Positions 4,912 to 35,127 of a DNA stretch of 35,127 nt are shown here, piece after piece. Made by a program: the position numbers and the translations under genes. Location: assembly GCA_028706295.1 (NCBI GenBank), contig JAQWBQ010000036.1, positions 1 to 35,127 on the forward strand, written 5' to 3'. The notes under the pieces are model-generated. The model did no database searches. It had not been told where the DNA came from and saw only the letters and a program-made list of their open reading frames with translations. This DNA is from Bacteroidales bacterium (GTDB lineage Bacteria; Bacteroidota; Bacteroidia; Bacteroidales; FEN-979). Positions within the stretch are counted from its first letter, which is position 1. Each line of letters opens with the position of its first letter.

Positions 4912-4926
4912 TTATATTTTAATTTT

Positions 4927-5553: not shown

Positions 5554-5562
5554 AGCGGTTAA

Positions 5563-6630: not shown

Positions 6631-6653
6631 TTTTCATATTTGATGAACCTTTA

Positions 6654-11780: not shown

Positions 11781-11794
11781 AAGTCTGACTGAAA

Positions 11795-13576: not shown

Positions 13577-13698
13577 TTATGCCTGCCCCGGTTCCGTTTC
13601 CGGAACACGTCATTTTCCCAATTCACATTAAATCAGTTTGTTACAATCGAAACAGCAGGAACTGTTCCCGGTTTGGAATTGTTTACTTACTAACATCC

Positions 13699-13714
13699 AA
13701 ATTGTTAACAATTT
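13699..13714. promoter_or_regulatory. Perfect 16-bp palindrome, possible operator
   Basis: AAATTGTTAACAATTT reads identically on both strands. It lies 12 bases upstream of the -33-like element of the predicted promoter, a position suited to a dimeric regulator. A run of T residues follows (13712-13718), so a weak terminator for the upstream gene is an alternative, although a palindrome without a loop makes a poor hairpin. Confidence 0.4.
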
Positions 13715-13726
13715 TTTTCGGAATCC

Positions 13727-13757
13727 ATTGAAGGTCGCGTTACACCGACTATTTTTG
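13727..13757 (+). promoter_or_regulatory. Predicted Bacteroidota promoter (-33/-7 type)
   Basis: TATTTTTG at 13750-13757 fits the TAnnTTTG -7 element of the primary sigma factor in this phylum. ATTG at 13727-13730 lies 19 bases upstream, matching the usual spacing of the TTG-type -33 element. It is about 85 bases before the ATG at 13842 and would drive the two tandem ligase-like genes. Confidence 0.5.
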
Positions 13758-13841
13758 TACCTTTATGAAAGAACTCCGATTTTAAGTTAAACCACCGGAA
13801 AAACGCTCAAACCGACTCACGATTAGCAAACCCAACAGAGG

Positions 13842-19059: not shown

Positions 19060-22000
19060 ATGAAAGCAAATTACGAATTAAAACGAATTGGGATCGGGCT
19101 AAAAACACCAATACTTTTACTGTTGTTGTTTTTAGCTGCTGTATTTCAATTGAAAGCACAGGTCCCGGACTTGATTTCAGATCCGGCAAGTGGGCACTAT
19201 TGTATCAATCCACCGGGTGGTGGCGTTACAATCAGTGTTCTGGGCGGTGAGGCGGTGACCTATACCCTGTGGAAGGACAATGTTTCCACAGGTGTATCTG
19301 TTGCCGGCACCGGTTCTCCGGTTACACCGGTTACTTTTACGGGAACATGGACCTATGGTACCTATACCCTGAACGGCCCCTGGGGCGCTCCATTCCTTGA
19401 ATACCTGACAGTTTACAGGGATGAAATGCCCACTGCTCCGACTTCAGCCGCAGCTACTGTGACCGAGGTTTGTCCGGAAGAAGAGACCACCATTTCCGCA
19501 GTTGGCGGCAGTGGAACGACCTTCGCATGGTACACCGGTTCCTGTGGCGAAACACTAATCGGATCAAGCACCGCAACTACTTCACTCAGTGTCTCTCCGA
19601 CCACAACGACCACCTATTACGGACGTTGGGAAAATGTTACCTGCGCTTCCGAGTGCGTTTCAATTACCATTACTGTTCTGAATACAAACACACCAACAAT
19701 CACAACCACACCTCCGACGATCTGCTGCGGTGATGAGACCACGCTCACTGCTGAGGGAACCGGCGGAACACTCTACTGGTACAGCGGCGGTTGCGTTGGC
19801 GTTGGTACATTCATCGTATCCAATACTACTTCTATAACAGTTTCACCTTGTACGACGACAACATACTATGTTAATAAAGTCAACAAGTGCGGAACCTCTG
19901 GCTGTGCATCAATCACAGTGACCCTTGATACTCCGACCACCGATCCGGAATCAGCTGCAGCAGCCCCGGCGGCAATCTGTGTGGGTGGCACAACAACCCT
20001 CACCGTTACCGGTGGCAGCGGCAATGCGCTGAAATGGTATACTGAGTCATGCGGCGGCACCCTGGTGGGCACCGGCAACGACCTGCTTGTCAGCCCGACC
20101 ACCACGACCCTCTACTATGCACGCTGGGAAAATACCTATTGTAAATCGGAATGCGTTACCGTTTCGGTGACCGTTTACCCGGTTCCGATCGATCTCGGCA
20201 GCGCGACCGCAAGCCCGACTACTATCTGCAGCGGCTCAACAACCTATCTTGATGTAACCGGATACACTGCAACCACCGGAGCTTATATCCAATGGTACAC
20301 CGGCTCATGCGGAGGCACTGCCCTGGCAATCGGCCGCAACATTCCTGTTACACCGACTACCACGACCACTTACTGGGCACAAACCAAGAACCCGGTCTGC
20401 ACCTCCCCGAATTGCGTTTCTGTGACCGTTACCGTTTATCCTTATCCGGAAGCTCCCACAGTGACTGGTGACGCTGTAATTTGTAATGGTTCATCGACCA
20501 TGCTGACCGCAGTCGGTGGTCCGTTCACCGGATCCACCATTGAATGGTACGCCGACGGAATCAAAGTTCCTGCCCTTTCCGGCCAGATGACCCCGACCGT
20601 AGCGCCTACCGTTACTACAGGTTACTATGCAAGGTTTGAGAACAGCGCCTGTGTCGGTCCCAACAGCAGTGTTGTAACCGTGACAGTGGGTTATATCCCG
20701 ACTACTCCGACTATCGTAGCCAGCGCCGTTGCACCGGGCGTTATCCTGGATAATACCATTTGCAAAGGCACCTCTATTAATCTGAATGTTACAGGCGGCG
20801 GTGCATCCGTACCTCCGGCTCTGACACTCAACTGGTACAGGGGATTCAGCCCGTGTGCAGGAACCTATTCTCCGACCTACACCGGTACCACCTTTACCGA
20901 CATGCCGGCCGGCAATACGAATTACTATGCACAGTATTCGAATATGTGCGGTGTTTCGGGTTGTGCAACCCTGACCATTTGCGTTGACTCCATGCCTTCG
21001 GCTCCTACAAGCATTACACCGAGCGCTACAATTATCTGCGCCGGAACAAATGTTACACTGACGGCCAACGGCCTGCCCGGTAACATTATCAACCCGTGTC
21101 CCGGATGTCCTCCGCAACCCATCAAGGCTACCATTTACTGGTATACCAATGAATGTGGCGTCGGAACAGCTATTGCTACCGGAACAACAATCACCGTATC
21201 GCCTACTTCCTCTACCAATTATTATGCACGGTATGAAAACGTTTGCGGCGCTAGTTCCTGCGCTTCAGTGAACATCACAGTGAACCGGGTTACCGATCCT
21301 GCGACCATTACTGCTCCCCATTCGATCTGCCTTGGTAACGAGACCACCCTTGAGGTTGGATTCCCGTTGTATCCGGCATATGGCACCATCAGATGGTACT
21401 CCAGCACAACGCCGTCAACCTGCGGAAGTGGTACCTTACTGACTGCCACCAGCACTTCGATCACCGTATCTCCGACCGTTACTACCTATTATTATGTACG
21501 TACAGAGAATACAAATGGCGGTGTGAACTGCTATTCAACTTGTACCGGTACGGTTGTTACAGTATTGCCGCTCCCGACAACACCGACATCGGCAAGCGCA
21601 TCACCGGCAACTATTTGCTACGGAAGCACCACCACCCTTACCGCATTACCTGCAACAGGTGTTGGCACTTTCAAATGGTACTATACTTGCCCGGTTAGCG
21701 AAACACCGACCCCGCTGCCTTCAGGAACAACCCTGGTTGTCTCCCCGACAGTTACAACTACTTATTACGGTCGTTGGGAAACTGCAACCTGTGGAAATTC
21801 TGCATGTGTAAGCGTTACTGTTACGGTTGACATGCCGAACGTCATGACCGGCCCGATCACCGCTTCTAACAATCCTGTTTGCGCCGGCAGCTCCGTAACG
21901 CTCGAAGCCCATGGTACAGGTAATACCTTACGTTGGTACAGCGGTTCTGAACCGTGCGGCGGTACCCTGCTGCAAACCGGCGGACTGCTTACCGTAACCC

Positions 22001-25000
22001 CGGTGATTACCTCACGGTACTTTGCCCGTTACGAAGGTGGCGCCTGCCCGAATTCGGCTTGCGAATCGATTACCATAACTTTGTCACCGGTTCCGACTAC
22101 TCCGGTCATCACCACTCCGAGCACTACCATTTGCTTTGGTGGCAATATTACCCTGAATGCTCAGGCCGGACCTGCCGGTACCACCATTAAATGGTACAAG
22201 GGCGCTTGCGGCACTGATTATCAGGGAACCGGAACCTCGCTGACTGTTACACCAACCCTGGGTACCAATTTATTCTATGCCCAGATGGAGAGCGCACCAT
22301 GTGCACCTTCAGCATGTGCAGTTGTAACCATTACGGCTTCAGCAAATCCTGCATTACCGACCAACGTTACTGAAAACCATAGCATTTGCTACGGTAACAC
22401 CACCACGCTTTCCGCTTCAGGCCCGACTGGTACAACCATTGCCTGGTACACCGGTTCATGCGGCGGAACCCTGGTAAGCAGTGGCCCGGGCCCGGTTTAC
22501 AGCATAACTGTATCACCGACCACCACAACCAAATACTATGTACGTACCGAAAGCGCAAGCTGCACTTCGTCTGAATGTCTGTCGGTGACTGTTACAGTTA
22601 ACCCGTTGCCGATTGATCCTGTTTCGATCGATGCAAGCGCTACCACCATCTGCCTGGGTAACACCGTAACCATGACGCCGCATACTCCGAGCAATGTTGG
22701 AGATGTTGCAAAATGGTACACTGGTTCTGATCCCTGCGGTGGAACGCTGATCGCTACTGTTACAGGTACTGGTTCCCTCACTGTTGCTCCGACGCTCACT
22801 ACTTTATATTATGTGACCTGGAACAACGACTGCGGTGAATCAGAATGTGCTCAGATACTGATCACTGTTATCAACCCGCCGGTTGCTCCAACCGAAATAA
22901 CTGCTACTGCAACAACCATCTGCAAAGATCATTCAACCACCATGACTGCCATCGGCGGTAGTGGCGCTACGATGAAGTGGTATCTGAACAGTTGTGGCGG
23001 AACGGCCATCGGAACGGGAACAACCTTAACGGTGACCCCGACAACCAAAGGCACCTATGTATATTATGCAAGATGGGAAAGCATACCTTGTGATCCGTCT
23101 GCATGCAAAACGATAACAATCACGGTTAATGACGTCGATCCTATCCCGACCATCACCACCACCCCGATGACCGTTTGTGTAACCAATGTAAATGTAACCC
23201 TGAATGCTACACAGGGTGCAGGCAGCATTGGTACGCTGAAATGGTACAAGGGTACTTGTGGCGGAACACTCGTTGGAACCGGTTCAACACTTAACGTAAC
23301 CTCGGCCATTTGCACCACTACGAGCACCTTCTTTGTACGCAGTGAGAATGAATGTGGTAACGGACCTTGTGCTTCAATCGTAGTGACAGTGGATCAGATC
23401 CCGACAGCCCCGACAACATTAAGCGGTCCGGGTACTATGTGTTCCGGAACTCCGGTACAGCTTTCAGCAACTACTGCCTCACCAACTCCTGGCGCCATCC
23501 TGAAATGGTACGACGGAGCTTGTGAAGGTACAGCTATTGGCACCGGAACCCCGATCACGGTTTCTCCGACCAACCTTACCAGCAGCAACATTACCAAGGT
23601 ATATTATGCACGATATGAAAATATGTGCGTATCAGCTTGTAAATCAGTTGTTGTTACGGTTAATCCTGCAAACATTGCACCGACTTCACTTACCGCTGTG
23701 GATCCCGTTATCTGCAATGGCGAGCCCGTTCTCCTTTATGCTAACGGCGGAAGCGGCGTACTGTTGAAATGGTACACCGGCTCGAATCCGTGTGGCGGAA
23801 CCTTCCTGAGCTCTGACAATCCTGTTACCGTATATCCGGTTCTTACTTCAAGGTATTTCGCACGTTATGAAGGTGGATTGTGTCCGCCGTCAGACTGCAA
23901 GGATATCCTTGTTGTTGTGAACGATGTACCGCAAACTCCGACTTCAATCAGCGCACCGGTAACTATCTGCGCCGGCTCATCAACAACCCTTTCAGCTACC
24001 TATACCAGCGGTACAGGTGTTACCCTGAAATGGTATGCGGGCGAATGTGGATATGGAACCAGCATCGGAACCGGAAATACTATTACAGTATCTCCGACTG
24101 TTACCACCACCTATTATGCAAGAACAGAAGCTGAAAGTTGCTCGCCGTCTGCCTGCCTCTCGGTAACTGTTACTGTAAACGCTGTACCTGAGGTACCGGT
24201 CAATGTAACCCCGAACAGCGCAATTTGTTACGGCCAGAGCATTGAACTGAATGCAAGTACAACCGGAGCAGGCAATACGGTTAACTGGTACACCGGATCA
24301 TGCGGCGGTACCTTCATCCAGACCGGAAGCCCGCTGGTAGTTTCTCCGACCGTTACTACTAAATACTATGTACGTTCAGAGGCTACCGGCTGCACTCCGT
24401 CGGCTTGTGCTTCAGTAACTGTAACGATCAATCCGTTACCGACACCTCCGACCGGAATCGTTGCCACGCTCAATCCGGTATGCAACGGAACCTATACAAC
24501 CCTCTCGGTTGTTGGCGGAAGTGGAGACTATGTATCATGGTATAATGGATCATCCGCTTGCGGTGGAATCTTTATCTCAACAAGTACCCTTTCACTGTCT
24601 GTTGCCCCGACGATCACCACGATCTACTGGGCAAGATGGGAAAATGGATGCGGTGTAACCGGTTGTGCTTCGATTACGATCACGGTTTCGGATGTACCGC
24701 AGATCCCGACTACCATCAGTGGTCCTGTTACAATTTGTAACGGTTCTTCAACAACCCTCACGGCTAGTTATGTTGCCGGCGCCGGTATCGCACTGTACTG
24801 GTACGATCACGCTCCGACACCGACCTCTGTGCCATTCGCTACAGGCGGAACGGTGGTTGTTGCCCCGACTGCTACAAAGACGTACTATGCACGTACTGAA
24901 AGCGCAGGATGTACCCCGTCAGCATGCAAGACTGTAACTGTAACAGTTTCAGATGTACCGACCACACCGACTTCAATCAGCGGTCCGGTAACCATATGCA

Positions 25001-28000
25001 CAGGTACATCTACAACCCTGACTGCGACCTATAACACAGGTGCCGGAATATCACTGAAGTGGTATCTTGGCGAATGCGGTGGAACGTCAATCGCAACAGG
25101 CGCTACCTATACCGTTCCTACTTCTCTGTCGGCAGGTACCTATGTGTATTATGCACGTACCGAAAGCACCAATTGCACACCGTCGAACTGTCTGTCGGTG
25201 ACTGTAACTGTAATTCCTGCTGCTACCAACCTGACGTCAATCAGCAAATCACCGAGCGAACCAGTATGCGAAGGCACACCGGTTACACTGACTGCTAATG
25301 GCGGCAGCTTCACTACCGGCGCTGTACTGAAGTGGTACACCGGTGGTTGTGGCGGAACTTTAATCGGTACCAGCACCAGTACCAGAACACTTATAGTAAA
25401 TCCGTCTGTGACAACAACCTACTATGCACGTTTTGAAAACGTAGCTTGTGTTGGCGCTTGCGTATCAGTTACTGTAAGCATCAAGCCGTTACCGACTGCT
25501 CCGACCTCGTTGTTGGCCAACCCGAACCCGGTTTGCGTTGGACATTCAACAACCATCCAGGCTGTGGGCGGAAGCGGTACAACTTTGAACTGGTATAGCG
25601 GTTCCATCCCATGTGCTGATCCGCTGGTTGCTACCGGTACCACCATCACGGTGTTCCCGCAGATCAATCCTACCCAGTATTCAGCACACTGGATCAACGA
25701 GTGCGGTGCATCAGCCTGTGCTGTTGTGAATGTTTACATCGATCCGTTGCCTGTTGCTCCAACCTCTATTACACCTTCAGCAACTGAAGTTTGCGTGGGC
25801 ACTTCCGTGACCATGACAGCAAACGGCGGTAGCGGAACGGTAGTGAAGTGGTATCTCAACGGTTGCGGTACAGGTACCGCTGTCGGAACCGGTCCGGTTC
25901 TTACGGTAACACCTGCTGCCGGCACCTATACCTATTATGCACGTTGGGAAAACGCTTGTGAACCTTCGACTTGTGCCGAGATCACAATTACCGTTTACCC
26001 GATCCCGACTGCTCCTGTCATCAATGCTTCTGTTAACCCGACCTGTGCCGGTGGTCTGACCACCCTCACTGCGGTTGGTGGCGGCGGTACCGGTTCTACC
26101 ATTAAATGGTATGCCGGAACCTGTGGCGGAACAGCTATTGCAAGCGGAGTTACCACGTTGAACGTTTCTCCGACTGCGACAACTACCTACTTTGCACGTT
26201 ATGAAAATAGCGCCTGCATGTCAGAGTGCGCTTCAAAGACCATCACGGTTTATGCAGTACCTGTAGCCCCGACATCTGCCTCGGCAAGTCCGAATAAAGT
26301 GTGCTACGGTTCAACAACAGTACTGACAGCAAACGGCGGAAGTGGCGAAACTCTGAAGTGGTATCGCGGAACCTGCGGTGGCATCTTCGTTGGAGAAGGT
26401 AATAATCTTACCGTAACCCCGACAGCTACAGCCACTTATTATGCTCGTTGGGAAAATCCTGCCTGCCAGTCAACCTGTGCCATGGTTACCGTACAGGTAG
26501 TACTGAGCCCGATTGCCCCGACTGCAGCCAATGTAAGCGCAGCTGAAATTTGCGAAGGCACCTCTGTACAGTTAACAGCTGTTGGCGGAGCAAATGGCAC
26601 TGCGAAATGGTATGCAGGTGGTTGCGGAACAGAAAACGGCGGAACCTTCGTCGGAAACGGCGTTGGATCCAATGCTGCTTTGACGATCGCCCCGACGGTT
26701 GGAACCACGGTGTATTATGTACGTTATGAGAATCCGCCGTGTGATCCATCAGCATGTGCATCGGTATCTGTTAAAACCTATGCAATTCCTGTAGCACCGA
26801 CCTCGATCACCGCTAATCCTCCGGTAGTGGGTGTTGGTTTAACCACCACCCTGACTGCTAATGGCGGAAGCGGTGAAACCGTGAAATGGTATACCGGATC
26901 ATGCGGTGGTCAGTATATCGGATCGGGTAACCCGATTACCGTAACAATCACTACCACGACTACTTTCTACGCACAGTGGACCAACCCGGTATGCTCTTCA
27001 GGTTGTGCTTCTGTGACAGTTAGTACGCAGACACTTGCACTCAGCGGTGTTGTGAAGTATAACAATCAGTACAATGTTGCTTTGAACGGTGTACATATTG
27101 CACTGAAACAAGGCTCGTCAACGATTGCTACCGACATAACTTCAACAGAGATTGTAGGTGGTATCCCGACACCGGGTTACTATAGCTTCACCGGTCTGAT
27201 TCCGGGAACTTATACCCTGGATGTGACCTACAGTGGAACATGGGGTGGTGTTAATGCTACCGACGCTCTTGTAATTGAACAACATGACGCCGGTCAGCTC
27301 ACCCTGCAGTACCTTTACTTAACTGCCGGTGATGTTGATGCTATTCCGCCTGTTAACTCAATCGACGCCCTCTGGGTCAAGATGCGTACCGTTGCAATGG
27401 TTAACTACTTCCCGGCAGGTGACTGGGTCTTCGGAACCACCACATCGGGATCGTTACCGGCAATAAATCTCACTGCAACACAAACCTTCAACTTTGTTGG
27501 ATTGTGTACCGGTGATGTCAATGGATCCTACATCCCGTCGGGCACCAAGGAAGCTTCGTTCATCTCCTTCATGGATGATGGAATACGCTACGTGAAACCG
27601 GGTGAAACCTTCACCTATGATATCGTGGCAGATAAGAATGCTGAAGTTGGCGCTATGACCCTGTTTATGAACTACGATGAAAACCTCGTTGAAGTAGAAA
27701 ATGTCAGCTCTGCACTGGGTGAAGTACAGTCGAAGATTGATGGCAACAACATCGGTGTTGCATGGTCCTCGATTAACCCGGCTAATGTTGACGCTACCAC
27801 ACCGGTTATTACTTTGACCATGAAGGCCAAGGGAACAATCGAAGAACCGAAACAGGTATTCACCGTGAACGGCGGAAGCGAATTTGCAAACGGTAAAGCT
27901 ATCAGGCTTGATAATCTGAACCTTAAGATGGCTAAACTTGCCACTGCAACCCATTCGTTCTCGCTGAACAACTACCCGAACCCGTTCAATAACAGCACGA

Positions 28001-28230
28001 AAATTGTTTACACCTTACCTGAAAAGGCTCACGTCACACTGATCATCACCAACCTTTACGGTGAAGTGTTACGTACGGTTGTAAACGGCGATGTAAGTGC
28101 CGGCGCTCACGAGGTAACGGTAAATGCTTCCGATCTTAACCTCTCAACTGGTGTTTATCTCTACAAGATTGAAGTTAATGGCGAAACCAACAACTTCAGT
28201 CAGGTGAATAAAATGATCTTCACCAGATAA
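19060..28230 (+). CDS. Giant T9SS-secreted protein with 29 Ig-like (CHU_C-type) domains, dockerin-like and cohesin-like modules
   Basis: The 3056-residue product has a signal peptide ending LKAQ (residues 1-34) and an atypical first domain (35-126). It then has 29 Ig-like domains of about 87 residues (127-2660), related to the Ig_7/CHU_C-associated family. Each unit follows the order I-C-x-G, T-T-L-x-A, K-W-Y-x-G-x-C-G-G, x-V-S-P-T, Y-Y-A-R and C-x-x-S-A-C. The cysteines suggest two disulfides per domain. After this come a small beta domain (from 2661), a dockerin-like pair (GGVNATDALVIE near 2729 and GDVDAIPPVNSIDAL near 2758), a cohesin-like domain (about 2841-2960, with IGVAWSSINP) and a T9SS type A sorting domain (2967-3056, beginning FSLNNYPNPFN). 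It should be exported by Sec, cross the outer membrane by T9SS and be anchored to the surface. A long rod-like adhesin or scaffold is the likely role. Confidence 0.9.
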   Translation: MKANYELKRIGIGLKTPILLLLLFLAAVFQLKAQVPDLISDPASGHYCINPPGGGVTISVLGGEAVTYTLWKDNVSTGVSVAGTGSPVTPVTFTGTWTYGTYTLNGPWGAPFLEYLTVYRDEMPTAPTSAAATVTEVCPEEETTISAVGGSGTTFAWYTGSCGETLIGSSTATTSLSVSPTTTTTYYGRWENVTCASECVSITITVLNTNTPTITTTPPTICCGDETTLTAEGTGGTLYWYSGGCVGVGTFIVSNTTSITVSPCTTTTYYVNKVNKCGTSGCASITVTLDTPTTDPESAAAAPAAICVGGTTTLTVTGGSGNALKWYTESCGGTLVGTGNDLLVSPTTTTLYYARWENTYCKSECVTVSVTVYPVPIDLGSATASPTTICSGSTTYLDVTGYTATTGAYIQWYTGSCGGTALAIGRNIPVTPTTTTTYWAQTKNPVCTSPNCVSVTVTVYPYPEAPTVTGDAVICNGSSTMLTAVGGPFTGSTIEWYADGIKVPALSGQMTPTVAPTVTTGYYARFENSACVGPNSSVVTVTVGYIPTTPTIVASAVAPGVILDNTICKGTSINLNVTGGGASVPPALTLNWYRGFSPCAGTYSPTYTGTTFTDMPAGNTNYYAQYSNMCGVSGCATLTICVDSMPSAPTSITPSATIICAGTNVTLTANGLPGNIINPCPGCPPQPIKATIYWYTNECGVGTAIATGTTITVSPTSSTNYYARYENVCGASSCASVNITVNRVTDPATITAPHSICLGNETTLEVGFPLYPAYGTIRWYSSTTPSTCGSGTLLTATSTSITVSPTVTTYYYVRTENTNGGVNCYSTCTGTVVTVLPLPTTPTSASASPATICYGSTTTLTALPATGVGTFKWYYTCPVSETPTPLPSGTTLVVSPTVTTTYYGRWETATCGNSACVSVTVTVDMPNVMTGPITASNNPVCAGSSVTLEAHGTGNTLRWYSGSEPCGGTLLQTGGLLTVTPVITSRYFARYEGGACPNSACESITITLSPVPTTPVITTPSTTICFGGNITLNAQAGPAGTTIKWYKGACGTDYQGTGTSLTVTPTLGTNLFYAQMESAPCAPSACAVVTITASANPALPTNVTENHSICYGNTTTLSASGPTGTTIAWYTGSCGGTLVSSGPGPVYSITVSPTTTTKYYVRTESASCTSSECLSVTVTVNPLPIDPVSIDASATTICLGNTVTMTPHTPSNVGDVAKWYTGSDPCGGTLIATVTGTGSLTVAPTLTTLYYVTWNNDCGESECAQILITVINPPVAPTEITATATTICKDHSTTMTAIGGSGATMKWYLNSCGGTAIGTGTTLTVTPTTKGTYVYYARWESIPCDPSACKTITITVNDVDPIPTITTTPMTVCVTNVNVTLNATQGAGSIGTLKWYKGTCGGTLVGTGSTLNVTSAICTTTSTFFVRSENECGNGPCASIVVTVDQIPTAPTTLSGPGTMCSGTPVQLSATTASPTPGAILKWYDGACEGTAIGTGTPITVSPTNLTSSNITKVYYARYENMCVSACKSVVVTVNPANIAPTSLTAVDPVICNGEPVLLYANGGSGVLLKWYTGSNPCGGTFLSSDNPVTVYPVLTSRYFARYEGGLCPPSDCKDILVVVNDVPQTPTSISAPVTICAGSSTTLSATYTSGTGVTLKWYAGECGYGTSIGTGNTITVSPTVTTTYYARTEAESCSPSACLSVTVTVNAVPEVPVNVTPNSAICYGQSIELNASTTGAGNTVNWYTGSCGGTFIQTGSPLVVSPTVTTKYYVRSEATGCTPSACASVTVTINPLPTPPTGIVATLNPVCNGTYTTLSVVGGSGDYVSWYNGSSACGGIFISTSTLSLSVAPTITTIYWARWENGCGVTGCASITITVSDVPQIPTTISGPVTICNGSSTTLTASYVAGAGIALYWYDHAPTPTSVPFATGGTVVVAPTATKTYYARTESAGCTPSACKTVTVTVSDVPTTPTSISGPVTICTGTSTTLTATYNTGAGISLKWYLGECGGTSIATGATYTVPTSLSAGTYVYYARTESTNCTPSNCLSVTVTVIPAATNLTSISKSPSEPVCEGTPVTLTANGGSFTTGAVLKWYTGGCGGTLIGTSTSTRTLIVNPSVTTTYYARFENVACVGACVSVTVSIKPLPTAPTSLLANPNPVCVGHSTTIQAVGGSGTTLNWYSGSIPCADPLVATGTTITVFPQINPTQYSAHWINECGASACAVVNVYIDPLPVAPTSITPSATEVCVGTSVTMTANGGSGTVVKWYLNGCGTGTAVGTGPVLTVTPAAGTYTYYARWENACEPSTCAEITITVYPIPTAPVINASVNPTCAGGLTTLTAVGGGGTGSTIKWYAGTCGGTAIASGVTTLNVSPTATTTYFARYENSACMSECASKTITVYAVPVAPTSASASPNKVCYGSTTVLTANGGSGETLKWYRGTCGGIFVGEGNNLTVTPTATATYYARWENPACQSTCAMVTVQVVLSPIAPTAANVSAAEICEGTSVQLTAVGGANGTAKWYAGGCGTENGGTFVGNGVGSNAALTIAPTVGTTVYYVRYENPPCDPSACASVSVKTYAIPVAPTSITANPPVVGVGLTTTLTANGGSGETVKWYTGSCGGQYIGSGNPITVTITTTTTFYAQWTNPVCSSGCASVTVSTQTLALSGVVKYNNQYNVALNGVHIALKQGSSTIATDITSTEIVGGIPTPGYYSFTGLIPGTYTLDVTYSGTWGGVNATDALVIEQHDAGQLTLQYLYLTAGDVDAIPPVNSIDALWVKMRTVAMVNYFPAGDWVFGTTTSGSLPAINLTATQTFNFVGLCTGDVNGSYIPSGTKEASFISFMDDGIRYVKPGETFTYDIVADKNAEVGAMTLFMNYDENLVEVENVSSALGEVQSKIDGNNIGVAWSSINPANVDATTPVITLTMKAKGTIEEPKQVFTVNGGSEFANGKAIRLDNLNLKMAKLATATHSFSLNNYPNPFNNSTKIVYTLPEKAHVTLIITNLYGEVLRTVVNGDVSAGAHEVTVNASDLNLSTGVYLYKIEVNGETNNFSQVNKMIFTR
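19438..27039 (+). repeat. Array of 29 tandem Ig-like domain repeats (about 262 bp each)
   Basis: I counted 29 units, from PTSAAATVTEVC to the STQTLA end, averaging about 87 codons. They are clearly related in protein sequence but diverged in DNA, so most are old duplications. Units 10, 17 and 24 share a x-G-S-x-P-C form of the central motif and related starts. Units 6, 13, 20 and 27 also resemble one another, which points to a seven-unit super-repeat. Unit 29 has lost the first conserved cysteine (VVGVG instead of I-C-x-G). Confidence 0.85.
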
Positions 28231-28240
28231 TTACTGAACT

Positions 28241-28288
28241 AATAAGAAGGCAACATGACTTCGGTCAGTTGCCTTCTTATTATTGTTT
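28241..28288 (+). terminator. Intrinsic terminator with UUCG loop
   Basis: AATAAGAAGGCAAC (28241-28254) pairs perfectly with GTTGCCTTCTTATT (28268-28281). Inside this, TGAC pairs with GTCA around a TTCG tetraloop, leaving one unpaired A at 28255. A short T-rich run follows. It starts ten bases after the stop of the giant gene, so much of that transcript should end here. Confidence 0.85.
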
Positions 28289-28343
28289 AATGAAGTAACC
28301 AATTAACATTAAATTAAACACTTCGAATATTGAGAATCGGTTA

Positions 28344-29381
28344 ATGAAAAGATTAATAGCACTCTTTTTATTTACAAATTTCAGTATTTATGTTTCAGCG
28401 CAAATTGCCATGTTGTCTATTGAGAACATGGCTGTTTGCGCTGAACAGGAAGTGTTGATTCCTGTTAAGGGATCCCAAATAAATAACCTTGCCGCACTCT
28501 CTTTACACATTTCCTATGATACCATCAACCTCCGTTTTATAGGGGTGACGAATATCACACCGCAGCTCACAGAACTGCAATTTGGCCTGAACATGAACCC
28601 CGACCCGAATATCGGAGTTGCATGGAGCAGCCTCAATCCTGTACAATTTTCTGATAATAAGCTTTTTGATCTGAAATTTTATTTAAAATCATTATACAGC
28701 CCGGTTACTTTTTTACCGACCTGCCAATTGGCTGACCTTTCACTGCAATCGATTGAAGCGGTTTACAGCAATGGCGGAGTGACGAACAACGCTCCGGTTA
28801 TCCTTAATCAACCTGACAATCGGAAAACGGTCGTCGGAGGAACGGTAGCTTTTGATATGGAAGCCACCTGTGAACAGTTTCAATGGCAGGAAAGCCGGGA
28901 TGGAGGAACCACCTGGGAGACCCTGCAAGAGAACTCAATTTATACAGGGGTTACTACGGCTCAGCTATCAATTCATAACGTTGCGCAAAGTTTCAATGGC
29001 TATTTGTACCGTTGTAATGTTGTTAACGGAAATTGTTTACTAAACTCAGAGGATGCCTTGTTGACCGTTGAAGCCTCCAATGGGTTAAATGATCCTGAAG
29101 AAAGTTTTCTTAATACCATTAAAATAATTCCAAATCCGGTTATTTCCATGGCCGGGATTCAATTTAAAGCTAACAGGACAGGCAAATTTTCATGGATATT
29201 AATGGACTGTCTGGGCAACTCAATCGGGAAACGGGAATCTGATATTATACATACGGGTATACAGAATTTATCTTTTGATCTGTCATACCTGAAACCCGGA
29301 ATTTATTTCTACCGGAGCGCATTCGTTACATCGGATGGAACCTACGGTACAACCGGGAAATTTATCAAACGCGCTGAATGA
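28344..29381 (+). CDS. T9SS-secreted protein with cohesin-like and Ig-like domains
   Basis: The 345-residue product has a signal peptide ending VSAQ (1-20). A cohesin-like beta domain (about 21-147) follows, with VLIPVKGSQINNLAALSLHI, a YDTINLRF strand and IGVAWSSLNP at residues 90-99. The Ig-like domain (about 150-243) has WQESRDGGTTW and GYLYRCNV blocks with paired cysteines. The last part, residues 256-345, is a T9SS type A sorting domain with KIIPNPV, LKPGIYFYR and GKFIK. It should be placed on the outer surface. The IGVAWSS motif is nearly identical to that in the giant protein's cohesin-like domain. The single cohesin-like domain may bind a dockerin-like partner, such as those in the neighbouring proteins; this is inference. 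It has its own start after the terminator, but no clear promoter was found. Confidence 0.85.
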   Translation: MKRLIALFLFTNFSIYVSAQIAMLSIENMAVCAEQEVLIPVKGSQINNLAALSLHISYDTINLRFIGVTNITPQLTELQFGLNMNPDPNIGVAWSSLNPVQFSDNKLFDLKFYLKSLYSPVTFLPTCQLADLSLQSIEAVYSNGGVTNNAPVILNQPDNRKTVVGGTVAFDMEATCEQFQWQESRDGGTTWETLQENSIYTGVTTAQLSIHNVAQSFNGYLYRCNVVNGNCLLNSEDALLTVEASNGLNDPEESFLNTIKIIPNPVISMAGIQFKANRTGKFSWILMDCLGNSIGKRESDIIHTGIQNLSFDLSYLKPGIYFYRSAFVTSDGTYGTTGKFIKRAE

Positions 29382-29438
29382 AATAAATAAACAACATATA
29401 AATCTATATTTTAAATATTAACTCTTTATAGAACAGTT

Positions 29439-31583
29439 ATGAAAAAGAAATTTACGCTGATATACTTAATGGTTTTGCTTTTCGGAGCAATATCTTATGG
29501 CCAGTCGGCGACAGCAACCCTAGCTACAGTTACGGGTACCCCGGGTAATCAGGTTATTGTACCCATTACCGTGACCGATTTTAACAATGTAGGCGCAATA
29601 ACTTTAAAGATTCATTTTACGAAAGGTGTTTTAAGTTATGCCAATATCATCAACGCTTTTCCTGGTTTCACACCCCTGATAGGATTTACCGACACCACAG
29701 TCAGTTTGGTTTGGTCTTCGTTAACACCTCTGACCATTCCAAATAATGTACTTGCGGAGCTGGTATTTCAATATTATGGTACTCCTACAGCGCTTACTTT
29801 TTTTGGATGTGCTGTTGCAACTGGTACACCGCCTGTGAATATTCCGGTGGCCTATACCAACGGAGCAATCAATCCGGATCAGACTTTAGCAAACCAGGCT
29901 CAGATCGGTACCAAAACAGCAGCGGCCTATGCTGCTACGGTAGCCGTCCCACTCTACTATCCCGCATTCAACGATTTAGCAGGTTCACTAACACAGAAGG
30001 TCCAGTTTGATCCGACAAAGCTTACTTTCCAGAGCTTGGTCGCAAAAGGAAATTTTGCCGGAGCGCTGGCAAGCTCCCTGAATGGCGTTGTAACTATTGC
30101 CTGGTCAAGCCTGACCGGTGTGAACATCGGAACACCGGGTGACACGCTGGTATTGAACTTTCAGTATCATGCAAGTGGTGATGTTCCTTTAAACTTTGCT
30201 GCCGGTAGTTTGATAACCACAACAGGTAGCGTCAATATTCCGGTCAGTTATTTTGGAGGAACAATTATTGCCCCCTTGCCAAGCGGAAATGCCACATTGG
30301 GTTCTTTTACTTCCTGCCAGGGAGATATCATTGAAGTTCCACTAACATTTTCCGGTTTCCCGGCCAATGTATCATCCTTTTCTCTGAATATCAATTATCA
30401 GATGCCAAAACTTTCATTTATCGAGGTATTGGATATCAACCCTGTTGGAAGCCTGACCTTCAATCAGACGGGAAATAACCTTTCCTTCGCATGGACCGAT
30501 TTATCAGGCCAGGATATTAACGGAACCTTTTTAAAACTGAGGTTCCGTTATAACGGAGTCGGAACTGCCGCCATTACATTCGGACCGGGATGTACGTTTA
30601 CCGTACTTCCGTCGAACCCTGTTTTGGTAACTTACGGTAACGGTGTTGTTACTCCTGCGCTTGCTGTAGGAAATAATGTACATATTGGTTATAAACAGGC
30701 TGTAAGTGGTGATGTGGTTCGGGTTCCGATAACTTTCGACAACCTGCCTACCGATATCGGCGCTGTAACCCTGTATGCAACTTTTGATAATACCAGTCTG
30801 AGTTATGTCGGCGCGCCGGTAAATCCTTTCGGAGCGCTGATCTATTCAACCGGAAATACCGTTGCAATTTCATGGGCCAGCATTACGCCGACCAACATCA
30901 ACGGAACATTTGCCGAACTTGCTTTTGAATATAACAGCACGGGCGCAGGATGCGGTGCGCCGATAACCTTCGCCGACGGTTGTGAAATTGCCAATGTCAA
31001 TCAACAGATACAGTGCATGAATTATCATAACGGCGGCGTCAACATGATGTTTAAGATCAGTGGTATTTTAAAATACGATGGCCCACCTAACTTTGCTGCC
31101 CTTCCACTTTCGAATTTCGAAGTTTACCTGAGTACTTCTCCCGAACCTGTAGCACCTGCTACTACTCCGTTAGCCGTTCGGGTTGATACCACTATCACCG
31201 ATGCCAACGGTTATTTTGAATTCTGGGCGCTTAATGGTACCTATTATATCTATGGCGGACAAACCATTGCATGGGCTGGTGTCGGTCCCCCGGATGTGAC
31301 CAACTTAAGAAGATATATTGCCGGTTTGTCCAATACTATAGGAACTGACGTTCTCAGACAAAAGGGCATGGATATCAATCAGGATGGAATAATCGATCCC
31401 AGTGATGTGACTCCTTTGAGAAGGAGAATTGCCAACCTGACACCCAACCCCAACTATCTTGCCCCGGATTGGTTTTACCAGAATCCATCTGTTACAGTAG
31501 ATTGTGCCAATATGGGAAACCAGGATGTTTATGGTATTTGCTCAGGAGATGCCAACGGTTCTTATCCTGATCCGAATCTCTAA
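29439..31583 (+). CDS. Secreted protein with four cohesin-like domains and a C-terminal dockerin-like domain
   Basis: The 714-residue protein has a signal peptide ending ISYGQ (1-22). Four tandem cohesin-like domains follow (about 23-147, 148-281, 282-407 and 408-536). Each contains a version of the A-W-S-S-L motif: VSLVWSSLTP, VTIAWSSLTG, LSFAWTDLSG and VAISWASITP. A carboxypeptidase-regulatory-like beta domain (about 537-610) precedes a dockerin-like domain (614-668). Its second half has a full calcium loop, DINQDGIIDPSD (645-656); the first keeps the helix DVTNLRRYIAGL but lacks a loop. The protein ends GICSGDANGSYPDPNL, aligning with GLCTGDVNGSY inside the giant protein, but no T9SS sorting domain follows. 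This domain order is that of a scaffoldin-like connector. The binding properties are unproven. Confidence 0.83.
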   Translation: MKKKFTLIYLMVLLFGAISYGQSATATLATVTGTPGNQVIVPITVTDFNNVGAITLKIHFTKGVLSYANIINAFPGFTPLIGFTDTTVSLVWSSLTPLTIPNNVLAELVFQYYGTPTALTFFGCAVATGTPPVNIPVAYTNGAINPDQTLANQAQIGTKTAAAYAATVAVPLYYPAFNDLAGSLTQKVQFDPTKLTFQSLVAKGNFAGALASSLNGVVTIAWSSLTGVNIGTPGDTLVLNFQYHASGDVPLNFAAGSLITTTGSVNIPVSYFGGTIIAPLPSGNATLGSFTSCQGDIIEVPLTFSGFPANVSSFSLNINYQMPKLSFIEVLDINPVGSLTFNQTGNNLSFAWTDLSGQDINGTFLKLRFRYNGVGTAAITFGPGCTFTVLPSNPVLVTYGNGVVTPALAVGNNVHIGYKQAVSGDVVRVPITFDNLPTDIGAVTLYATFDNTSLSYVGAPVNPFGALIYSTGNTVAISWASITPTNINGTFAELAFEYNSTGAGCGAPITFADGCEIANVNQQIQCMNYHNGGVNMMFKISGILKYDGPPNFAALPLSNFEVYLSTSPEPVAPATTPLAVRVDTTITDANGYFEFWALNGTYYIYGGQTIAWAGVGPPDVTNLRRYIAGLSNTIGTDVLRQKGMDINQDGIIDPSDVTPLRRRIANLTPNPNYLAPDWFYQNPSVTVDCANMGNQDVYGICSGDANGSYPDPNL

Positions 31584-31628
31584 GAACAACGTCGATAGCA
31601 CCTTTAACGAACTTAATAATCCAGACAT

Positions 31629-34600
31629 ATGAAAAATATATATTTATCCTCAGTTAAGAAATTGCTGGTCTTACTTATGCTTATCAGCAGTTTGGGAGTG
31701 ACTGCACAAACTTCGGTTACCATACAGCCCGACCGCATAGGTTGTGTTGGGGATACCATTCATATTCCGATCCATGTTACAGGTACCAATGTGTACAATA
31801 TGGCGTTTTATATTACCTATGACCATAGTGTATTATCACAGGTGGGGCCTCTTTACTATACCTCGGTTCACCCCTCGATGGTTGTGACTTATAACCCAAC
31901 TTTTAATGCAACTACCCTGGGATGTTTTCTCGATGTTAATGGTATTACAGGCCTCAATCTGAATAATGATAAAGTGATTGACCTTGTTTTTACGGTTGGT
32001 TCTGTTGGTTCAACAACCCTGCATATTCGGAAAAGTCCTGATACAAATCCTGTTTCCGGGATCTGGGATGATCTTGGCGCACCGATTTTACCGGTGACAT
32101 ATACCGATAATATTGTAACAGGAACCAACTTCCTGCCTGCCAGTGTAACCATTGCCTCCAACCCGGTAATGCCAATATGTCCGGGAAGCACGGTAACCTT
32201 CACTGCTACTCCGGTTAACGGCGGGACAAATCCTGCCTTCCAATGGAAAAATATGAATATTGACATACCGGGAGCTACCAATGCAACTTATATAACCAAC
32301 ACCTTACTCAGGAATGACCAGATCACCTGTGTGATGACCTCTTCCTATCCTTGTGCCACAGGTTCTCCGGCGACTTCAAATGTTATTACGGTGACCTTCC
32401 CTTATGCTGATTTTATTGCAGGAATTGCCGGTACTGACCAGGCAATCTGTTATAATACCATTCCTGATCCCTTACACGCAGACGATCCTATAGGTGGTAT
32501 TGCCCCCTATAGCCTGCAATGGGAAAGCAGTACGGATGGAATTCTTTGGAGTCCGATATTTGGTGAAACTAATAATATTTACGCACCGCCTGCTCTTAGC
32601 CAGACGATGATGTACAGGCAAATGCAGAGTTACACAGGCATCTGTGGTACTGAAACGGTATATACCAATGTCGTAACTATTCAGGTTTATCCCCAGTTCG
32701 TGGCAGGAAGCATTGCTTCGAGCCAGACCCGATGCTATGGCGCAGTTCCTGATCCGCTGATTGGCATTCCTCCTGTCGGTGGTAAAACGCCTTATACCTA
32801 TCAGTGGCAGAAATCAACAGACGGGATCCTGTTCAGCGATATTTATGGTGCTACAGATCTGAATTATGCCCCCCCGGCACTGAATCAGACTACCTATTAT
32901 CAGATGTTGCAAACATCCTCAGCTGGTTGCGGAACTGTGGTTACGAATATGTTGACCATTACCATTCACGATCAATTGATCGCAGGTGATGCAACCCCGC
33001 CGCAGACGATCTGCAATGGTGGCACCCCTTCAATGCTTTCGATTATCAATACGACAGGCGGCAGTGGTTTATTCACTTACCAGTGGCAGGATTCGCCGGA
33101 TGGAGTGGTCTGGAGTAATATACCCGGAGCAACGGATAATACGTACACCTTCACCACACCGTTAACTATGACAATGCATTACCAGGCTGAAATTACGGAC
33201 ACCTATTGCGGAACCAATCCGCTGACAGTGGAAGTCACCAACCCGGTTATCATAACAGTGTATGATCCATTGATCGCGGGCGATGCTACCCCGCCGCAGA
33301 CGATCTGCAATGGTGGCACCCCTGGAATGCTTTCGATTATCAATACGACAGGCGGCAGTGGTTTATTCACCTACCAATGGCAGGATTCACCGGATGGAGT
33401 GGTCTGGAGCGATATACCCGGAGCAACGGATAATACGTACACCTTCACTACACCGTTAACTATGACAATGCATTACCAGGCTGAAATCACCGACACCTAT
33501 TGCGGAACCAATCCGCTGACGGTGGAAGTCACCAACCCGGTTATCATAACAGTGTATGATCCATTGATTGCCGGCGATGCTACCCCACCGCAGACGATCT
33601 GCAATGGTGGCACCCCTGCAATGCTTTCGATTATTAATACGACAGGCGGCAGTGGTTTATTCACTTACCAGTGGCAGGATTCGCCGGATGGAGTGGTCTG
33701 GAGTAATATACCCGGAGCAACGGATAATACGTACACCTTCACCACACCGTTAACTATGACAATGCATTACCAGGCTGAAATTACGGACACCTATTGCGGA
33801 ACCAATCCGCTGACAGTGGAAGTCACCAACCCGGTTATCATAACAGTGTATGATCCATTGATCGCGGGCGATGCTACCCCGCCGCAGACGATCTGCAATG
33901 GTGGCACCCCTGGAATGCTTTCGATTATCAATACGACAGGCGGCAGTGGTTTATTCACCTACCAATGGCAGGATTCACCGGATGGAGTGGTCTGGAGCGA
34001 TATACCCGGAGCAACGGATAATACGTACACCTTCACTACACCGTTAACTATGACAATGCATTACCAGGCTGAAATCACCGACACCTATTGCGGAACCAAT
34101 CCGCTGACAGTGGAAGTCACCAACCCGGTTATCATAACAGTGTATGATCCATTGATTGCCGGCGATGCAACCCCGCCGCAGACGATCTGTGCGGGTGAAA
34201 CCCCTGCAATGCTTTCGATCATCAATACGACAGGCGGCAGTGGTTCATTCACTTACCAGTGGCAGGATTCGCCGGATGGAGTGGTCTGGAGTAATATACC
34301 CGGAGCAACGGATAATACATACACCTTCACCACACCATTAACTATGACGATGCATTACCAGGCTGAAATCACCGACACCTATTGCGGAACCAATCCGCTG
34401 ACAGTGGAAGTTACCAACCCGGTAACAATAACGGTAAATCCCTTACCACTGGTTTCTGCAGTTGCATTGGAGTATTCAACAACCGGAACCACTCCATGGA
34501 TACCTGTCAATGGTACACTCGGAACGGGTTATGACTTGTGTATCGATACCGATATTCCGTTCTATTACCTCGATATCAATACCCTTGTTGTTAACGTACC

Positions 34601-35127
34601 TTTAGCTTCCACCGGATTCGTTCAGAACGGATTTAAGTTGAACACAACCAGTCTGCCTCCCACCTGGAGCGCTTATTGGAATGCCAAGGGCGTAAACGCA
34701 GGTGCAACTCCCGGAACCTGGCAGGCAGTGATGTATCAGATCATCCTTGGAAATCAACCGATGTTCTATATCAATTATACCGGAACCGATTATCAGTTGA
34801 TCGACGGAATGCAGTACCAGTTAAATGGAACAATTGCCACCTTGCGCGTTTCGGGAGATTACCCGCAATGGGCATATGGCTATACGGGTTCCGTGACAGA
34901 TATCAATGGGTGTGTTTCGAATCCTATGAATATCCAGATGACATTCAATACTATTCCGGATCCGACGATCACAGGCCCGATTGCAGCCTGCGTGAACTCA
35001 ACCGGAAACATCTATACAACAGAAGCAGGCATGACGGGATATACCTGGGTTGTAGTTGGCGGAACGATAGTCGGACCTTCAACAGGCAACAGCATCAATG
35101 TAACCTGGACGACGGTAGGCGCACAAT
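31629..35127 (+). CDS. Secreted repeat protein with cohesin-like, Ig-like and 98-residue tandem repeats, 3' end outside window
   Basis: An uninterrupted frame runs from ATG 31629 to the window edge, giving at least 1166 residues. It begins with a signal peptide ending GVTAQ (1-27). A cohesin-like domain follows (about 28-160, with IGCVGDTIHIPIHVTG and VYNMAFYITYDHSVL). An Ig-like domain comes next (about 166-255, SNPVMPICPGSTVTFTATP, with FQWKN). Two diverged repeats (about 258-447) contain QWESSTDGILW and QWQKSTDGILF. Residues 448-937 are five nearly identical 98-residue units with TYQWQDSPDGVVW. The part after 938 has a different beta domain and then a PKD-like start (PDPTITGPIAACVNSTGNIY). 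A T9SS sorting domain is expected beyond the edge but cannot be confirmed. It is probably a surface or secreted filamentous protein. Confidence 0.82.
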   Translation, partial: MKNIYLSSVKKLLVLLMLISSLGVTAQTSVTIQPDRIGCVGDTIHIPIHVTGTNVYNMAFYITYDHSVLSQVGPLYYTSVHPSMVVTYNPTFNATTLGCFLDVNGITGLNLNNDKVIDLVFTVGSVGSTTLHIRKSPDTNPVSGIWDDLGAPILPVTYTDNIVTGTNFLPASVTIASNPVMPICPGSTVTFTATPVNGGTNPAFQWKNMNIDIPGATNATYITNTLLRNDQITCVMTSSYPCATGSPATSNVITVTFPYADFIAGIAGTDQAICYNTIPDPLHADDPIGGIAPYSLQWESSTDGILWSPIFGETNNIYAPPALSQTMMYRQMQSYTGICGTETVYTNVVTIQVYPQFVAGSIASSQTRCYGAVPDPLIGIPPVGGKTPYTYQWQKSTDGILFSDIYGATDLNYAPPALNQTTYYQMLQTSSAGCGTVVTNMLTITIHDQLIAGDATPPQTICNGGTPSMLSIINTTGGSGLFTYQWQDSPDGVVWSNIPGATDNTYTFTTPLTMTMHYQAEITDTYCGTNPLTVEVTNPVIITVYDPLIAGDATPPQTICNGGTPGMLSIINTTGGSGLFTYQWQDSPDGVVWSDIPGATDNTYTFTTPLTMTMHYQAEITDTYCGTNPLTVEVTNPVIITVYDPLIAGDATPPQTICNGGTPAMLSIINTTGGSGLFTYQWQDSPDGVVWSNIPGATDNTYTFTTPLTMTMHYQAEITDTYCGTNPLTVEVTNPVIITVYDPLIAGDATPPQTICNGGTPGMLSIINTTGGSGLFTYQWQDSPDGVVWSDIPGATDNTYTFTTPLTMTMHYQAEITDTYCGTNPLTVEVTNPVIITVYDPLIAGDATPPQTICAGETPAMLSIINTTGGSGSFTYQWQDSPDGVVWSNIPGATDNTYTFTTPLTMTMHYQAEITDTYCGTNPLTVEVTNPVTITVNPLPLVSAVALEYSTTGTTPWIPVNGTLGTGYDLCIDTDIPFYYLDINTLVVNVPLASTGFVQNGFKLNTTSLPPTWSAYWNAKGVNAGATPGTWQAVMYQIILGNQPMFYINYTGTDYQLIDGMQYQLNGTIATLRVSGDYPQWAYGYTGSVTDINGCVSNPMNIQMTFNTIPDPTITGPIAACVNSTGNIYTTEAGMTGYTWVVVGGTIVGPSTGNSINVTWTTVGAQ
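32970..34439 (+). repeat. Five tandem 294-bp repeats in ABABA order
   Basis: Units start at 32970, 33264, 33558, 33852 and 34146. The sequence CAGACGATCTG recurs at exactly 294-base spacing (33003, 33297, 33591, 33885, 34179). The copies are almost identical in DNA. Units 2 and 4 share markers such as GGAATGC, CCAATGG and GAGCGATATA. Units 1, 3 and 5 share CCAGTGG and GAGTAATATA. This implies recent duplication of a 588-bp two-unit block. Confidence 0.92.

Follow-up and report, generated by a model that had tools for sequence, protein, structure and literature searches.

In clostridial cellulosomes, a scaffoldin carries several cohesins followed by an X-module and a dockerin (together referred to as an XDoc), and a separate cohesin protein provides the surface anchor. 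The XDocs of Clostridium thermocellum ScaA and CipB pair with the type II cohesins of ScaF and ScaC2, and that of Acetivibrio cellulolyticus ScaA pairs with ScaB3; structures of the system are given in the available passages of the same source as PDB entries 2b59, 5g5d, 5k39, 4u3s, and 4wi0 (PMC5141474). The nearest published system, within the accessible passages of the literature, is that of “Ca. Stygibacter” (Cloacimonadota), for which a genome-based prediction describes a cellulosome-like arrangement with a multi-cohesin, scaffoldin-like protein that has a C-terminal domain for attachment to the cell's own surface, together with signal-peptide enzymes, including a C25 peptidase, that end in dockerins (PMC8542988, in part). 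Here, we describe four neighboring genes in a 35,127-nucleotide stretch of the genome of an uncultured Bacteroidales bacterium (contig JAQWBQ010000036.1, referred to in full as the window). Their products carry cohesins and XDocs, and we consider it fairly probable that the cluster encodes a cohesin-dockerin scaffold exposed via the type IX secretion system (T9SS), in which the XDoc of a scaffoldin docks on an anchor encoded by the next gene and the matched pair is exchanged as a unit.

The locus resembles the clostridial arrangement in that one protein has several cohesins and then an XDoc, with a separate cohesin protein as the likely anchor. The clostridial X-module has, as far as the source passages go, a carboxypeptidase-D-like immunoglobulin (Ig) fold, and the modules here match CarboxypepD_reg; clostridial XDocs are also among the PDB sequence relatives of the window modules. 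Unlike the clostridial system, the locus has a T9SS-type tail in place of a clostridial wall anchor, and no cellulose-binding module or tagged glycoside hydrolase was seen. The first calcium loop of the dockerin appears to be split, most XDoc proteins have a cohesin downstream of the XDoc, and the proposed anchor gene adjoins the scaffoldin gene and switches type together with it. “Ca. Stygibacter” differs in phylum and in that its tagged partners are enzymes, and neither a four-cohesin-XDoc scaffoldin beside a cohesin anchor nor paired switching is reported in the accessible parts of that paper (PMC8542988). No comparable Bacteroidota system was found in the titles, abstract openings, and passages of the open-licence literature: the parts available of two papers report no cohesins or dockerins in Bacteroidetes or gut data, or none tied to cellulases (PMC5831590 and PMC8810776), and a third reports Bacteroidota single cells with dockerins and no cohesin (PMC10266427, in part).

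The window is one entire contig (C70) of a ~4.0-Mb, 149-contig Bacteroidota-type genome that is 95.6% complete and that encodes SprA on another contig (C19; 2611 bits), which places a T9SS in the genome. The four genes all lie on the + strand, are separated by gaps of 113, 57, and 45 bases, and encode predicted exported products, as follows.

19060..28230, + strand: giant exported protein of 3056 residues with 29 Ig_7 repeats (Pfam E 6.1e-258, 29 stretches), then an XDoc, a cohesin, and a T9SS sorting domain
28344..29381, + strand: 345-residue protein with a cohesin, an Ig domain, and a T9SS-type tail
29439..31583, + strand: 714-residue primary-scaffoldin-like protein with four cohesins and a C-terminal XDoc, without a sorting domain
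31629..35127, + strand: open-ended protein whose gene runs off the contig (1166 residues visible), with a cohesin, SprB repeats, and a PKD-like domain; proposed anchor

In the scaffold that we favor, the 714-residue protein, with four cohesins, a C-terminal XDoc, and no anchor of its own, would be the primary scaffoldin, and its XDoc would dock onto the cohesin of the neighboring open-ended protein. The latter would serve as the surface anchor, since its complete orthologues end in a T9SS-type tail. The four free cohesins would take XDoc-bearing partners, for example, the Ig-repeat giant and a beta-helix protein encoded on contig C79, and the 345-residue cohesin-Ig protein would be a second, single-socket anchor. 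Exchange of the XDoc and the anchor cohesin as a unit would keep the plug fitting its socket. A surface filament or matrix, as proposed in a sequence-only reading of the window, is one possible outcome of such assembly. The 345-residue protein also recalls TMEM132, an adhesion-like protein with a cohesin beside Ig domains; that family is eukaryotic, and its vertebrate members have no detectable dockerin, according to the passages available (PMC6030884).

That reading had counted seven cohesin-like domains in the four proteins (one, one, four, and one), and all seven are borne out by PF00963 together with an iterated family profile. Profile searches with PF00963 and PF00404, which it had suggested as a check, agree in part. 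The PF00963 cut-off of 24.1 bits is passed by the 714-residue protein (E 1.8e-25, 90.2 bits, 4 stretches) and by the open-ended protein (E 2.9e-6, 28 bits); the cohesins of the giant's C terminus (E 0.0036, 17.9 bits) and of the 345-residue protein (E 0.015, 15.9 bits) fall below it, as do both dockerins with respect to the cut-off for PF00404. Taken singly in a genome search, three of the seven cohesins exceed the PF00963 cut-off, and the family profile, whose seed consisted of one C79 cohesin and the four from the 714-residue protein, picks up 7/7. Among relatives, PF00963 is matched at E<=0.001 in 5/11 members of the 345-residue family set and in 5/13 giant-type tails. The motif x-A-W-S-S-L-x-P, said to be shared by six of the domains, is exact only in the 345-residue protein (VAWSSLNP); five others have looser versions (VAWSSINP, LVWSSLTP, IAWSSLTG, FAWTDLSG, and ISWASITP), and it is absent from the seventh. 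Chance resemblance as a source of the domain calls was rejected on the strength of the Pfam and family-profile matches. The cohesins are as follows.

27595..27900, + strand: XDoc-adjacent cohesin of the giant, residues 2846-2947 (family profile)
28416..28781, + strand: cohesin of the 345-residue protein, residues 25-146 (family profile)
29511..29870, + strand: scaffoldin cohesin 1 (genome search and family profile)
29898..30266, + strand: scaffoldin cohesin 2 (family profile)
30288..30650, + strand: scaffoldin cohesin 3 (genome search and family profile)
30678..31040, + strand: scaffoldin cohesin 4 (PF00963, 41.1 bits; PDB 2vn5_A, E 3.4e-4)
31740..32117, + strand: cohesin of the proposed anchor, the open-ended protein, residues 38-163 (PF00963, 28 bits, above the cut-off)

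The dockerin-like segments that had been noticed in two of the proteins are real, and each proves to be a whole XDoc by a family profile built from 30 modules.

27040..27537, + strand: XDoc of the giant, residues 2661-2826 (family profile and its PDB matches)
31056..31568, + strand: XDoc of the scaffoldin, residues 540-710, type A (PDB 4wi0_B)

PF00404 gives 13.0 and 14.9 bits in the two proteins, below its cut-off of 22.9, and E<=0.001 in 8/13 giant-type tails. Searched alone against the PDB, the scaffoldin XDoc has as the best of its 12 matches 4wi0_B, the XDoc of a primary scaffoldin (E 1.4e-4). The family profile spans both parts of 4wi0_B, 2b59_B, 4u3s_B, and 5g5d_B (E 1.5e-6 to 2.3e-5, with 4wi0_B at 1.5e-6); in the same search, matches to a single part score higher, including the X-module-like domains of NOMO2 (1.7e-18), the serine-protease dockerin 8x39_A (5e-10), SdrD (8.5e-10), and the dockerin 4dh2_B (3.7e-8). 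In relatives, the first part matches CarboxypepD_reg or SdrD_B and the second Dockerin_1, which places the X-module directly before the dockerin. An X-module of this kind is described, in the passages available, as resembling carboxypeptidase D domain II, and XDocs that contain it bind type II cohesins (PMC5141474). In layout, the 714-residue protein is a primary scaffoldin, its series of cohesins being followed by an XDoc at the C terminus, and the earlier suggestion of a scaffoldin resemblance is strengthened, as the neighbors of this protein combine a cohesin with a T9SS-type tail (for the open-ended protein, a tail seen in complete orthologues).

The gene order of the cluster is conserved across the genus. 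In 15 of the 16 scaffoldin loci of the 714-residue type (window included), the cluster gene before the scaffoldin gene encodes a cohesin protein with a tail, and the 16th lies at a contig end. With L064 dropped, as it is the same locus in a near-identical genome, and with L070 and L068 ending before the next gene, 13 loci remain in which that gene could be read, and in 13/13 it opens with a signal peptide, judged by eye, and a cohesin-like domain. The general family profile recognizes six of these 13 cohesins, and a profile of those six recognizes the other seven (E 5e-11 to 1.7e-50); taken together, these seven give a match of 98.6% probability to the general cohesin profile. In all complete next genes (10/10), the family profile recognizes a T9SS-type tail at the end; three, including that of the window, run off the contig.

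Some loci show variants of this layout. An extra cluster protein of ~1040 residues (four cohesins, XDoc, cohesin, and sorting domain) is found in L068, L070, L072, and L079. The next gene of L078 (L078:2374-5690) encodes two cohesin-like domains (residues 36-165 and 610-755), with a single one elsewhere. A small exported protein of 144-150 residues is encoded after the anchor gene in 6/6 loci (L065, L066, L067, L071, L072, and L074).

The strongest indication of a specific pair comes from the joint change of type in the scaffoldin XDoc and the next-gene cohesin, which together form the following feature.

31056..32117, + strand: proposed cognate cassette, scaffoldin XDoc and next-gene cohesin (co-switch of types)

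On the tree of scaffoldin XDocs, two clades are separated with support of 100/100, type A (11 genomes) and type B (4 genomes), and the next-gene cohesins fall into the same two clades (99/99), with B comprising the three type-B genomes in which that gene is visible. L064 was dropped from these tests and L082 (another genus, another layout, and an open end) from the scaffoldin set, L070 and L068 lack the next gene, the second cohesin-like domain of L078 was excluded, and domain starts in the next genes, above all that of L069, were placed by hand. The between-genome distances of the two domains are correlated across 13 genomes (r 0.74; Mantel p 0.0002, the minimum for 5000 permutations; leave-one-out, 0.68-0.78). 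Controls against the same XDoc are low: r is 0.08 for the rest of the next gene, 0.14 for the upstream cohesin (12 genomes, L078 lacking the upstream gene), 0.08-0.25 for the scaffoldin's own cohesins 1-3, and 0.32 for cohesin 4 (p 0.04). The giant-type XDoc is correlated with the parts of the cluster (11 genomes, r 0.62-0.83) except the scaffoldin XDoc (0.13), and these correlations are a species signal.

The flanking sequences have a different history. On the tree of scaffoldin cohesins and the upstream gene, type B requires three changes, of which strongly supported branches compel two; for the remainder of the next gene (11 genomes in the tree, as the window and L078 have another, longer type of protein), three changes are required, and all are forced. 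A single type-B clade is rejected on both sides (approximately unbiased test, p-AU 3.1e-59 for the scaffoldin cohesins and 1.1e-71 for the rest of the next gene), and in the flanks, L073, of type B, groups with L077 and L083, both of type A (100/100). The joint switch and the rejection of a B clade in the flanks indicate that the scaffoldin gene at its 3' end and the following gene at its 5' end were replaced jointly on more than one occasion, and the breakpoints fall close to the edges of the two domains. Since the controls are flat, the two domains look like a cognate pair that is exchanged as a cassette between species; the XDoc of the 714-residue protein and the cohesin of the open-ended protein are thus the likely partners.

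Several observations weigh against this scaffold. The correlation of the pair stems from the A/B switch: without the three B genomes, r is 0.54, against 0.47-0.61 for the controls (0.59 for the rest of the next gene and 0.47-0.61 for the own cohesins), and no partner of the four free cohesins emerged from the correlations in 11 genomes. Host cohesins outnumber full-length XDocs by 16 to 3, the reverse of a cellulosome, which leaves most of these sockets without a known plug. The next-gene cohesins are divergent, with PF00963 seen in two of the seven (L078 above the cut-off, L071 at 0.0014 below it); the tails of the six complete next genes scanned with Pfam, out of ten, all match PF18962 below its cut-off, at 15.3-23.8 bits, with L074 at E 0.025, and the anchor candidate of the window is truncated at the contig end with its tail out of view. 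AlphaFold models on four-row alignments (window and L017 segments) have a mean predicted local distance difference test (pLDDT) score of 30.8 for cohesin 4-XDoc and 38.8 for XDoc-cohesin. With the latter low-confidence model, from the giant, cohesins are the top three Foldseek matches (E 0.007-0.011, none at E<=0.001), and the solved cohesins 2jh2 (Clostridium perfringens) and 2xdh (Archaeoglobus fulgidus) are among the matches. In family f18, SprA was not found (0/9 genomes) despite XDoc-like ends, so that the module need not imply this system, and family-profile cohesins occur in 6/14 f18 genomes and are mostly weak.

The XDoc and the next-gene cohesin are also only ~170 bases apart (31568 to 31740), so that a single recombination tract could carry both without any binding between them. 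Recombination tracts are contiguous, and the signal comes from only three type-B genomes in which both genes are visible. Under such linkage, one tract would have replaced a polymorphic stretch that happens to extend across the junction between the two genes. We regard this explanation as unlikely, as the tract stops near the domain edges, with cohesin 4 and the rest of the next gene following the backbone (r 0.32 and 0.08), and as it would have to account for three changes, of which two (scaffoldin side) or all three (next-gene side) are forced by strongly supported branches, with both domains of type B in 3/3 of the cases in which both are visible.

Docking on the neighboring anchor is also consistent with the distribution of sorting domains. 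As far as is known, T9SS cargo requires a sorting domain, and the 714-residue protein itself has none. The sequence-only reading had given two of the proteins T9SS anchors; the giant passes the TIGR04183 cut-off of 23 bits and, with SprA in the genome, is a T9SS type A cargo.

27964..28218, + strand: T9SS type A sorting domain of the giant (TIGR04183, 26.2 bits, above the cut-off)

The 345-residue protein, at 20.2 bits, does not pass, but its family set supports the tail, with matches at E<=0.001 in 11/11 members for PF18962 (cut-off, 27 bits) and in 10/11 for TIGR04183. Across 65 loci (45 and 20) with 98 XDoc proteins whose C terminus is in view, 62 have the order XDoc-cohesin-sorting domain; in three more, a gap of ~150 residues between XDoc and sorting domain looks cohesin-like by eye, and one of these gaps matches PF00963. 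The remaining 33 have no sorting domain: 23 (outside f18) end no more than 5 residues past the XDoc, eight are from f18, and two (L087) have long ends of other kinds. An XDoc immediately ahead of a sorting domain was found in none of the 98. The rule is therefore that an XDoc either ends a protein without a sorting domain or has a cohesin before the sorting domain. In genus relatives G010 and G026 (L084, L080, and L085), several XDoc-cohesin-sorting-domain proteins stand in rows.

The frequency of that order (62/98) speaks for the possibility that an XDoc binds the adjacent cohesin of its own chain to form a rigid unit ahead of the anchor, with scaffolding in trans being minor. The giant and the C79 beta-helix protein have such an adjacent cohesin as a rival site for their XDocs. 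In the 62 cassettes, XDoc and adjacent cohesin are correlated with r 0.82, compared with 0.46 for XDoc and sorting domain, and cohesins that adjoin an XDoc group together on the cohesin tree (6 changes over 66 rows, against a mean of 60 after shuffling). However, adjacency alone yields the same chain-like pattern (cohesin and sorting domain, 0.67), and no cohesin follows the XDoc in the scaffoldin; we consider a lock in cis a serious but rather unlikely alternative to docking in trans.

In a more speculative extension of the docking model, the dockerin would serve export as well as attachment: an XDoc protein that lacks a sorting domain would fold in the periplasm, bind a carrier equipped with both a cohesin and a sorting domain, and be taken through the outer membrane along with it, with types A and B as a recombining specificity code; the types may then decide which passenger rides which carrier. 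We put this forward as a doubtful idea, suggested by the XDoc syntax, the paired switch, and the gene set of G194 (family f35, SprA present). In that genome, the one cohesin found belongs to a protein with a sorting domain; its neighbors are two proteins that end in an XDoc (a CotH kinase and a DMFA2_C protein), and an XDoc-ended deacetylase is encoded elsewhere. Candidate passengers would be the four-cohesin scaffoldin here and the CotH, deacetylase, and other proteins in f35.

Whatever the partner, the dockerin is unusual in its calcium loops. Alignment of 77 modules shows a complete second loop (D at position 1 in 73/77, N at position 3 in 64/77, and D at position 12 in 77/77). This loop is the only complete one, compared with the two of a type I dockerin (PF00404): the first repeat keeps position 12 (D, 76/77) and position 7 (G, 57/77), and ligands 1, 3, and 5 are missing in place. 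A motif with the spacing of these three ligands, G-D-V-N-G-S-Y, stands at the end of the module (D 73/77, N 69/77, and S 66/77), ~80 residues downstream of the incomplete first loop.

27244..27264, + strand: GGVNATD, second half of the first calcium loop of the giant's dockerin (ligands 7, 9, and 12; 77-module alignment)
27514..27528, + strand: DVNGS, proposed first half (ligands 1, 3, and 5) at the C-terminal module end (77-module alignment; the pairing of the halves is proposed from it)

The 90 PF00404 matches in a selection of 24 genomes from the phylum are bimodal in the profile position at which they start, with 28 at 1-4 (full first loop), 59 at 7-11 (first half absent), and 3 at 21-23. 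The missing ligands, the terminal DVNGS, and the bimodal starts suggest that both ends of the module probably contribute to closing the first loop. A W ahead of the first helix (73/77) and a P following the C-terminal motif (70/77, 7 gaps) recall the W-P clasp described, in the passages available, for the Ruminococcus flavefaciens ScaA dockerin (PMC5934362). Covariation of the halves is unclear: under a strict rule, both halves pass in 44 of the 77 modules, only the first fails in 26 (mostly through S or T at ligand 9), only the second in 6, and both in 1. Type B scaffoldin XDocs have GNVLGTN as the C-terminal motif in 3/4 and a different spacing ahead of the first helix; this deviation represents one lineage of one domain. 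With one canonical and one split loop, docking would be expected to depend on calcium. No report of a split calcium loop as a closure of a dockerin was found in the open-licence literature.

As to what the dockerins are attached to, three full-length XDocs were found in the host genome, on the scaffoldin, the Ig-repeat giant, and the right-handed beta-helix protein of C79 (P0006; Beta_helix E 4.6e-32). None is on a recognized enzyme, which fits the earlier remark that no glycoside hydrolase is encoded nearby and extends it, as no dockerin-tagged one was found in the genome. Dockerin-bearing polysaccharide-degrading enzymes, by which a cellulosome is defined, are thus absent from the recognized host XDoc proteins, and a cellulosome proper was rejected. 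In relatives, the same XDoc is carried by enzymes: a gingipain-like C25 peptidase with XDoc, cohesin, and sorting domain (L084:12509-16882), GH16 (f18), a polysaccharide deacetylase (f35), and CotH kinase proteins. The module family is therefore not purely non-enzymatic. That these relatives point to an enzyme-carrying, cellulosome-like complex in the host, with enzymes that were missed, is very improbable given three full-length XDocs on non-enzymes in a genome of this completeness. Non-cellulosomal cohesin and dockerin modules were reportedly surveyed by Peer et al. in 2009, and the present set is similar in lying outside cellulosomes.

XDocs and cohesins co-occur among genomes. In the host family (43 genomes), XDocs are present in 25, and PF00963 is matched in 25/25 of these versus 4/18 of the others, with one match each (Fisher p 3.9e-8); the association is partly trivial, as the two domains often share one chain. 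In a phylum sample of 296 genomes (at most the best 12 or 13 candidates scored per genome), PF00963 is matched in 98, 86 of them above the cut-off, and XDocs (E<=1e-15) are found in 17, with PF00963 in 13/17 versus 85/279 of the others (p 2.1e-4). The four genomes with an XDoc and without PF00963 all belong to f18; three of them give 1-3 matches to the family cohesin profile, of which one genome is itself a row.

These four genomes, the excess of host cohesins over XDocs, and the presence of non-dockerin X-module-like folds (NOMO2 and SdrD) among the top PDB matches of the XDoc profile would fit generic beta-sandwich stalk modules that keep a cohesin or dockerin signature and do not bind one another. 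This is quite improbable in light of the conserved ligands of the second calcium loop (positions 1 and 12) and the family-wide co-occurrence, although part of the latter is trivial through fusion, and it would leave the paired A/B switch without a reason. Eight XDoc-ended proteins of two f18 genomes, one of them truncated at the start, have no signal peptide by eye. Giants of this family (L151-L153), also with no visible signal peptide, have an XDoc-like end that closes with GDV[N/D]G[S/N]W and two further residues. Family f18 seems to use the same module as a C terminus for a different export route, which we assume may be type I, and is an exception to the scaffold system described here.

Other features of the window and of related contigs were as follows. 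Directly upstream of the cluster (3988-18679) are genes for glycosyltransferases, hexapeptide transferases, WbsX, and two Wzy_C/O-antigen-ligase-like tetratricopeptide repeat proteins; a link to attachment of surface polysaccharide is possible. The open-ended protein contains five near-identical units of ~100 residues (SprB repeats, 32960-34430), which may account for the nearby contig break. SACF01000052.1 (L017) has the same locus with the same neighbors and a 96% identical scaffoldin; its title, “Alphaproteobacteria bacterium isolate INTA.CYC.164,” looks wrong. The second conserved scaffold locus of the host (C79:1-8367; L018) encodes the beta-helix protein with XDoc, cohesin, and sorting domain, and the adjoining gene encodes a protein with four cohesins, Ig-like spacers, and a sorting domain; the same gene pair recurs in L088-L091. 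The end of contig C99 (C99:5545-6369; L019) holds part of a paralogue of the 714-residue scaffoldin, namely, its first two cohesins. Ten XDoc loci on viral contigs (seven matching the X-module part only and three giving no match to the family profile at E 0.01) were not used, and a plasmid search with the scaffoldin gave no match.

The proposed scaffold, if correct, would mean that Bacteroidota possess their own cellulosome-style assembly logic, coupled to the T9SS and applied to surface proteins instead of cellulases. New orthogonal cohesin-dockerin pairs would then be available. The split calcium loop, if confirmed, would be a way of closing a dockerin not met in the open-licence literature. 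The scaffoldin, which has no sorting domain and whose predicted place is the cell surface, raises the question of the route by which such proteins get there.

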